Source of the DNA: Prochlorococcus sp. AG-409-P03
Lineage (GTDB): Bacteria > Cyanobacteriota > Cyanobacteriia > PCC-6307 > Cyanobiaceae
Reading direction: 5' to 3'
Assembly (NCBI GenBank): GCA_003215295.1
Contig: QCKN01000002.1
Location: 78,030-142,029, forward strand
Length of the DNA: 64,000 nucleotides
Shown in pieces: positions 51,982 through 54,381 of the stretch. The notes under the pieces were generated by a model. It worked only from the letters and a program-made list of their open reading frames with translations. It searched no databases and was not told the origin of the DNA. The position numbers and the translations under genes were made by a program. How positions within the stretch are numbered: position 1 is the stretch's first letter; every line of letters begins with the position of its first letter.

Positions 51982-52443
51982 TTACAGGCCTAAACGGATG
52001 AGCAAGGGAGGCAGCAATAAAAGGAGTGCAATAAGCAATGAGCTAATTGAAGCAACAAGCACCGCTCCTGCAGAACAATCTTTCGCGATTCGCGCCAATG
52101 GATGAAACCGTCTCCCAATAGCCAGATCCACTACAGCTTCTATAGAAGTATTTATTAATTCCAGTACTAACACAGCAGCAACAGTTAGAACCAATACAGA
52201 TAGATTTTCAAAACTAAGTTTCAGCCACAATCCCATGGCAAAAACCACTGCACCAATAAATAAATGGATGCGAAAATTTCGTTGGCTAGAGAAACCATAA
52301 ACAAGGCCTTGAGTCGCATATCGAAAACTCGCAGGCAAATCACTTGCAATTCTCCAAGACCCTCTTCTAGAGGCTCTTGGAGAATGACTTGCAAGCCTGG
52401 TGATCTTCTTTGCTTGGCTCACGTTGACTGTCTCAGGACACAT
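51982..52443 (-). CDS. dgkA: Diacylglycerol kinase (DgkA family)
   Basis: FRYATQGLVYGFSSQRNFRIHLFIGAVVFAMGLWL; LVLELINTSIEAVVDL; KDCSAGAVLVASI. Confidence 0.92.
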   Translation of the reverse strand: MCPETVNVSQAKKITRLASHSPRASRRGSWRIASDLPASFRYATQGLVYGFSSQRNFRIHLFIGAVVFAMGLWLKLSFENLSVLVLTVAAVLVLELINTSIEAVVDLAIGRRFHPLARIAKDCSAGAVLVASISSLLIALLLLLPPLLIRLGL

Positions 52444-53015
52444 CAGAGTTGTTTGGATAGAGAGTCACCACCACTTTGAAGATTACCTCCAACGCGAAGA
52501 AGTTGCTCCTGACAGTTCATCATTTCATCCAGAGTTGCCTGAGAAGGGTGATCCCAACCAAGTAAATGCAATAAACCATGACTCACTAACCATCTAATCT
52601 CTTGAACTAGGCCATGGTTCTGCTCTAGAGCTTGACGCTGTGCTGTAGTTACTGACACAACAATATCCCCTAGCTCAACACATTGATTTGTCGGAACAAC
52701 CACTGCTTCATCAAGAACTGGAAAGGACAAAACATCTGTTTTTTCTGATTTATTCCGCCATCTTGTATTGAGCTCACGAATTGTCAAATCATCTGTCAAC
52801 TGGAGTCCAAGACTAATTGATGAGGCCTCTCGAACAATTGTCGGACACGTCCAAGTCTTTTCAGAACGAATCATTTGAATCCACCTAATAAGGTCTTCCC
52901 TCCAGATATCCGCCTTAGTGAGTAACAGCTTTGATCCGTTATCAAGCGCCTCGTTGCAAGCAAAGTGATCAGTATGTGTAAAAGCCAAATCAAGGTCAAA
53001 CAATTTCTGATTCAT
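52443..53015 (-). CDS. ybeY: Endoribonuclease YbeY
   Basis: LNTRWRNKSEKTDVLSFP; GDIVVS; WLVSHGLLHLLGWDHP zinc motif. Confidence 0.94.
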   Translation of the reverse strand: MNQKLFDLDLAFTHTDHFACNEALDNGSKLLLTKADIWREDLIRWIQMIRSEKTWTCPTIVREASSISLGLQLTDDLTIRELNTRWRNKSEKTDVLSFPVLDEAVVVPTNQCVELGDIVVSVTTAQRQALEQNHGLVQEIRWLVSHGLLHLLGWDHPSQATLDEMMNCQEQLLRVGGNLQSGGDSLSKQL

Positions 53016-53022
53016 ATCCTCA

Positions 53023-53223
53023 TCATTGAGGGAGTGTCGGACGACCTAACCAAGCAACAATAAGGATGAACCCCACGAAACCAAAAGCAGTTAAACCAAA
53101 ATGAAAAAGACTCTGACTACCTTTTCGAACCATATTCTTCATTGCCAATTTGACAAAACTGGGAGGTGGAAGCTTCTTGGGAGTTTTACTTTGCATGCTG
53201 TGATCGTTATCTGAACTAGTCAT
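53023..53223 (-). CDS. DUF3285 family small membrane protein
   Basis: LPPPSFVKLAMKNMVRKGSQSLFHFGLTAFGFVGFILIVAWLGRPTLPQ. Confidence 0.75.
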   Translation of the reverse strand: MTSSDNDHSMQSKTPKKLPPPSFVKLAMKNMVRKGSQSLFHFGLTAFGFVGFILIVAWLGRPTLPQ

Positions 53224-53228
53224 CGTTG

Positions 53229-54381
53229 TTACTCCTTATCTAATTCCATCGCAGGATCACGAACTCCTTGGCGTAAGAGAGACTGGATGAATAAATCTAG
53301 ATCCCCATTCATCACAGCTTGCACATCAGTGGTTTCATCAGCAGTACGTAAATCCTTAACCATTTGGTATGGATGAAAGACATAATTACGAATTTGATTG
53401 CCCCATGCTGCCTCCACTATGTCTCCTCGAATATCTGCTATTTCAGCAGCCCTCTGTTCCTGAGCAATAATCATCAACTTAGCTTTGAGTAAAGCCATAG
53501 CCTTCTCCTTATTCTGGAGTTGAGAGCGCTCTTGAGTACAACGAACAGCTAATCCTGTCGGGACATGAAGTATACGCACTGCAGTCTCAACCTTATTAAC
53601 ATTTTGGCCGCCAGCTCCTCCTGATCGGCTGGTAGTAACTTCAAGATCCTTATCAGGAATCTCAAGGTCAACCTCTTCATCCAACATTGGCATTACCTCA
53701 ACACCCGCAAAACTAGTTTGCCGCTTGGCATTGGCATTAAAGGGTGAAATCCTAACTAGGCGATGCGTACCTTTTTCATTCTGTAAGTAACCATAAGCAA
53801 AACGACCCTCAACTTCGATGGTGGCACTTTTAATCCCAGCTTCTTCACCTTCAGATAACTCATCAATAGTGACCTTCATGCCATGATTCTCTGCCCAGCG
53901 GGTATACATACGAAGAAGCATTTGGGCCCAATCCTGAGCATCTGTACCCCCAGCTCCAGCGTTAATAGACAATACGGCCCCCTCTTGATCGTATGGACCA
54001 CTCAAAAGCCTTTCAAGCTCCCAAAGATCTAAATCCATTCTCAACTGATTCAATCCTGCTTGAGCCTCACTAAGCATTTCCTCGTCTGGATCCAAGTCAT
54101 AAAGGTCAACTATTGCTGTGGCATCCTCCACGGCTGTCAACCACTTAGCGAGCTTGGCTAATAATGCCTTGATCTCATCAAGCTGACGCATGTATTTCTG
54201 AGCATTTTTCTGATCACTCCAGAAATCTGGCTGCGCGGCCAATTGTTCAAGATCCTTCTTACGTGCTTCTAAAGAAGCAACGTCAAAGACAGTCCTGAGC
54301 ACTGCTCAGGCGCTCTTTGAGCAATGTCAATTCTTTTTTGAAATCAATGAGATCTAGCAAAATAAGTTCTTGCGTGCGCAT
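53229..54381 (-). CDS. prfB: Peptide chain release factor 2, expressed via programmed +1 frameshift: join(53229..54284, 54286..54381) complement
   Basis: GGQ motif region [22 protein letters not shown]. Upstream zero-frame ATG at 54381 encodes [32 protein letters not shown] then CTT TGA C (54288-54282 on minus); the +1 frame continues [22 protein letters not shown]. Confidence 0.93.

Follow-up and report, generated by a model that had tools for sequence, protein, structure and literature searches.

A conserved mRNA hairpin upstream of the prfB +1 frameshift site of oxygenic cyanobacteria as a probable stimulator of the shift

The +1 frameshift in prfB, the gene of RF2, is the textbook case of frameshifting stimulated by SD pairing between ribosome and mRNA. 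This frameshift is in itself already known: when RF2 is short, the ribosome waits at the UGA and a helix near the P codon promotes the slip, and in E. coli this helix is formed by the SD and the anti-SD with a spacer of 3 nt (PMC5009743; PMC8710568). A survey of 12,753 genomes called the SD hyper-conserved, and its main text covers neither cyanobacteria nor a hairpin (PMC12421855). Synthetic hairpins placed upstream of CUUUGA reached about 60% of the stimulation by the SD in E. coli 70S extracts, and their +1 effect scales with stability and requires the absence of RF2 (PMC6321510). A refolding hairpin may pull the mRNA 5'-ward (PMC3639245). No mention of a prfB hairpin was found in the openly searchable literature, and within the literature searched it is the hairpin at the cyanobacterial slip site, not the frameshift, that is the new part; an earlier mention is possible in subscription papers or in Baranov et al. 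2002.

The prfB cassette of E. coli (AGGGGG UAU CUU UGA C) and that of the cyanobacteria share the gene, a leader of about 25 codons, the slip site, the stop, the C at +4 and the type of E-site codon. However, E. coli possesses a strong SD at -9..-4, whereas in this place the cyanobacteria have a conserved 7-bp hairpin together with a weak AGGA. With the synthetic upstream hairpins (Cho 2013, PMC3639245; Huang 2018, PMC6321510) the cyanobacterial element would have in common the co-translational refolding just 5' of the slip site, as well as CUUUGA and 70S ribosomes, but those hairpins were engineered while the cyanobacterial one is natural, shorter (6-7 bp), located 5 nt from CUU and class-wide. 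The 5' stem-loop of T4 gene 60 (PMC5009743) is also similar, in that a hairpin closing behind the ribosome is proposed to pull the mRNA and the take-off codon precedes a stop; it differs in promoting a long bypass instead of a +1 shift, and sequence and gene are unrelated.

The window, i.e. the whole stretch of DNA analysed here, comprises 64,000 nucleotides of Prochlorococcus sp. AG-409-P03. Its minus strand reads ATG CGC ACG ... AGC AGT GCT CAG GAC TGT CTT TGA C GTT GCT TCT from 54381 to 53229, so that an in-frame stop near codon 26 divides the RF2 gene, with the body in the +1 frame (Table 1). Only one TIGR00020 match above the cut-off is present in the genome assembly (70% complete); it lies at this locus and has a single TGA inside. 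A first-pass annotation had read a 32-codon frame from the ATG at 54381 to the slip site, followed by RF2 in the +1 frame, and both were confirmed by re-reading the sequence and by the TIGR00020 match. Because of the zero-frame stop, the RF2 frame at +1 and the single match with its inner TGA, the frameshift reading is correct and the GTG start at 54302, already called an artefact, is indeed one; this GTG is not conserved as a start. It is practically certain that a short leader and the RF2 frame are connected by a genuine +1 frameshift at CUU UGA C. The comparison of homologues had been set beforehand as a possible refutation of the autoregulatory RF2 frameshift, and since leader frame and slip site turned out to be conserved, the sequences strongly support it. 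The cassette, including CTTTGA, is present in all 242 parsed oxygenic-cyanobacterial prfB genes with an intact 5' end, and no prfB without the frameshift was seen among them; the heptamer is CTTTGAC in 212 of 213 class rows and CTTTGAG in one. Downstream of prfB the order on the minus strand is a 66-aa membrane protein, a YbeY-like and a DgkA-like gene (51982-53223), and the first two of these seem to follow prfB also in L300, L316 and L318.

Table 1. Features of the prfB frameshift cassette in the window.
Feature	Coordinates	Strand	Evidence or remark
Zero-frame leader ORF from TTG 54360	54283..54360	-	25 codons + UGA; ATG 54381 would add 7 codons
RNA hairpin CCUGAGC (54310-54304), AGU loop (54303-54301), GCUCAGG (54300-54294)	54294..54310	-	Covariation, synonymous null, 375/390 genomes; MFE -11.3 kcal/mol
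False GTG start called in the ORF track	54300..54302	-	Spans hairpin loop and first base of 3' arm
Weak SD-like AGGA, inside or abutting hairpin 3' arm	54293..54296	-	Predicted anti-SD duplex -4.0 kcal/mol
E-site codon UGU	54289..54291	-	In relatives UAU, UGU or UGC nearly always; UAC in few
Slip site CUU UGA C	54282..54288	-	P-site CUU would shift +1 to UUU; zero frame ends at UGA 54285-54283
RF2 body, +1 frame, GAC 54284 to stop	53229..54284	-	TIGR00020 473 bits; translation gives full RF2

The 32-codon length proposed earlier for the leader found no support. Counted back from the slip site, a start at codon 24-26 is present in 236 of the 242 genes; in Cyanobiaceae this is usually codon 25 (TTG, GTG or ATG), in the others codon 24 (ATG). 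An ATG at codon 32 occurs in the window alone among the cyanobacterial prfB genes compared. Since the start at codon 24-26 is conserved and close relatives such as L258, L064 and L067 have TTG as their sole leader start, translation probably begins at TTG 54360, and ATG 54381 is probably wrong. The leader would then have 25 codons, a length similar to that in E. coli. The frameshift cassette explains why gene callers assign wrong starts to prfB.

Directly 5' of the slip site, the DNA of the window contains the perfect inverted repeat CCTGAGC-AGT-GCTCAGG (54310-54294), corresponding to a stable hairpin near the E site. With the C of CUU numbered 0, the arms lie at -22..-16 and -12..-6 around a 3-nt loop, and the 3' end of the stem is exactly 5 nt upstream of the P-site codon CUU; indels between stem and slip site are absent from the 242 parsed genes. 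Other versions of the stem are CCTGGGC-CAT-GCCCAGG in many Synechococcus and CCTGGGT-AAA-ACCCAGG in many other families. Stem and slip site together, allowing at most one mismatch to the pattern, were identified in 375 of 390 cyanobacterial genomes (327 of 335 good genomes; 157 of 160 genera). Twelve of the 15 misses have no assembled RF2 5' end, L295 and L299 form the stem via wobble pairs, and L267 is degenerate with a weak, shifted stem. An Rfam search of the hairpin region gave nothing over threshold. As no U-tract follows the stem, a terminator was rejected. In the window (54283-54320), the flanks UCAAAG and CUUUGA could moreover pair around the hairpin and hide the slip site in free mRNA; the UCAAAG flank is unconserved in relatives.

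Several lines of evidence point to pairing in the mRNA. Under a synonymous-codon null drawn from the codon usage of each gene, all six outer pairs are expected in 11% of the sequences but form in 184 of 195 distinct ones; in AT-rich genomes they form in 42 of 47 (2.6% expected), and the hairpin MFE is -11.4 against -3.8 under this null. Third codon positions lying 5' of the stem changed 38-58 times on the RF2 tree, while within the 5' arm there were 6 changes at -22 and none at -19; this arm belongs to no SD, yet its synonymous sites are frozen. A G-test of all column pairs against a tree null mainly picked up a single deep split, that of Cyanobiaceae from the others, and event-level and pairing tests were therefore used. 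For the pair -18/-10, 10 of 11 independent G to A changes face a T (background 18%; binomial 3e-7), and three leaves are unpaired, while random placement of the changes would give 37 (p = 0.0005). Codons for Ala or Thr co-occur with GGC or GGT in a second codon at -16/-12, but taken singly this pair does not reach significance under a tree null that randomises both columns; its apparent G-A mismatches are all GAAAA or GCAAA loops, which would be compatible with GNRNA-type folds. Strong covariation is confined to these two pairs because the remaining ones barely vary. RNAalifold, unaided, returned the same seven pairs with a covariation score above all 500 shuffles, and sliding the partners against each other collapses both helix and score. 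It is highly probable, as judged from the sequences compared, that a conserved mRNA hairpin precedes the prfB slip site even in the AT-rich Prochlorococcus.

The same stretch contains only a weak SD. In place of a strong AGGGGG-like internal SD 3 nt before CUU there is only AGGA, at -8..-5 from CUU (E. coli AGGGGG, -9..-4), and hence the cassette is a variant of the SD-driven form and not the standard one. The first-pass annotation had placed AGGA further from CUU than the SD of E. coli, which holds for its 3' end (1 nt further) but not in the anti-SD register, where it is 1 nt closer. Its suggestion that the stimulator may differ from that of E. coli gains support for another reason than the one given, namely that a conserved hairpin embeds the weak SD. 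Predicted SD:anti-SD energies have a mean of -4.2 and a median of -4.0 kcal/mol in the oxygenic class, in contrast to a mean of -9.7 kcal/mol in the non-oxygenic lineages of the phylum, where the SD is strong and a comparable hairpin is absent, and to -7 to -13 kcal/mol in E. coli (-10.7) and other phyla; the predicted pairing of the class is thus about 5 kcal/mol weaker than that of its non-oxygenic relatives. A search of 20 relatives gave the anti-SD sequence GGATCACCTCCTT in 8, and the assembly to which the window belongs is incomplete and lacks the 16S 3' end with the anti-SD. Among the non-oxygenic members, prfB of L047, L048, L050, L055 and L056 appears to lack both the frameshift cassette and the SD, while relatives of these keep AAGGAG-UGU-CUUUGAC. 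Two divergent members of the phylum, L197 and L198 (G296, G277), have AGGGGG-TTG-CTTTGAT, with a full SD, a Leu E-site codon and U after the stop.

Lying where such an element would be expected by analogy with the systems described above, the hairpin is probably the natural stimulator of the prfB +1 shift, replacing the SD duplex. When RF2 is scarce, the ribosome would wait at the UGA and the peptidyl-tRNA-Leu would slip from CUU to UUU, giving full-length RF2. The main stimulator in oxygenic cyanobacteria would be the mRNA hairpin of 6-7 bp, and probably not a strong SD duplex. The hairpin would be melted by the advancing ribosome and the stem would refold just behind it; its base, 5 nt 5' of the P codon, would then occupy the place that the SD:anti-SD helix takes in E. 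coli. Refolding may then pull or wedge the mRNA and move the ribosome one base forward, perhaps via a loosened E-site tRNA, and the residual AGGA may help the shift. Counting against this model, the stem is almost absent in L119, which retains AGGA, and is weak and shifted in L267; moreover, in synthetic -1 attenuation the effect was halved when the stem was shifted from 2 to 5 nt off the slip site (PMC3639245).

Because nearly all species of the class retain AGGA, SD pairing may still matter. One possibility is that AGGA itself is the stimulator and the hairpin a damper, which hides it from free 30S subunits, thereby preventing internal initiation, and melts during translation. The retention of AGGA within the 3' arm and the occurrence of the anti-SD in several genomes of the family would fit such a role, but we regard it as rather unlikely: the predicted AGGA duplex is far weaker than the hairpin (-4.0 against about -11 kcal/mol) and AGGA would thus lose the competition, the GAC that blocks a longer SD is favoured over GAG (85 vs 9 of 111 distinct upstream sequences), the stem is kept in L239 (CAGCAG) and L295 (CGGGCC) where the AGGA core is lost, and mere sequestration needs no invariant 5-nt spacing. 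The two elements could also act in sequence, the hairpin pausing or positioning the ribosome and then opening for pairing of AGGA with the 16S rRNA. Both are retained, and in some other phyla a hairpin seems to end immediately 5' of a full SD; in cyanobacteria, however, hairpin and SD duplex are mutually exclusive and the former is by far the more stable, which makes this order of events quite unlikely.

It is very improbable that the repeat is a DNA operator, or merely reflects the leader peptide or codon usage, and has no part in frameshifting as mRNA. The repeat is palindromic and RLGxxQDYL, the leader peptide, shows a fair degree of conservation of its own, as would be expected in these cases. 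However, -18/-10 is G-T in 30 sequences and A-C in none, and tolerance of G-U but not A-C favours sense-strand RNA pairing over the symmetry of a DNA palindrome. The frozen CTG of the 5' arm is invariant except for one TTG, although CTG makes up 24% of the Leu codons in the same genes, and the hairpin motif occurs only once in the genome assembly.

Related elements may exist beyond the cyanobacteria. In a small control set of prfB genes from other phyla, taken from plasmid records (viral contigs yielded almost none), stems ending exactly at -11 and adjoining a full SD were found in E. coli, Enterobacter, Sinorhizobium, Methylobacterium, Mitsuaria, Bacteroides and Parabacteroides, and were absent in the Bacillota of this set. 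As the single-sequence p values range from 0 to 0.27, these stems are only a lead. L319, L327, L328, L329, L330, L335, L340 and L341 (-29..-11) are prfB genes from several Pseudomonadota and Bacteroidota whose best local stem has its end at -11; each stem is weak on its own, and the common end point is odd. Such stems before the SD may belong to the cassette as a related and so far overlooked part, and might correspond to the additional cis element proposed for Flavobacterium johnsoniae (PMC8710568). Very large Prevotella phages (Prevotella phage Lak, MK250015-MK250029) carry an RF2 homolog about 55% identical to the RF2 of Bacteroides.

Returning to the hairpin as stimulator, we tentatively suggest, with somewhat less than even confidence, that an mRNA:16S rRNA helix was exchanged for an mRNA hairpin at the same place on the branch to the oxygenic cyanobacteria, making the shift independent of the anti-SD. 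If so, a helix next to the E site would matter for +1 shifting whatever its second strand, and the class-wide swap would be a natural test that tells apart two causes of the slip, a helix near the E site and anti-SD pairing. Such a swap also suggests how translational control can persist under weak SD pairing.
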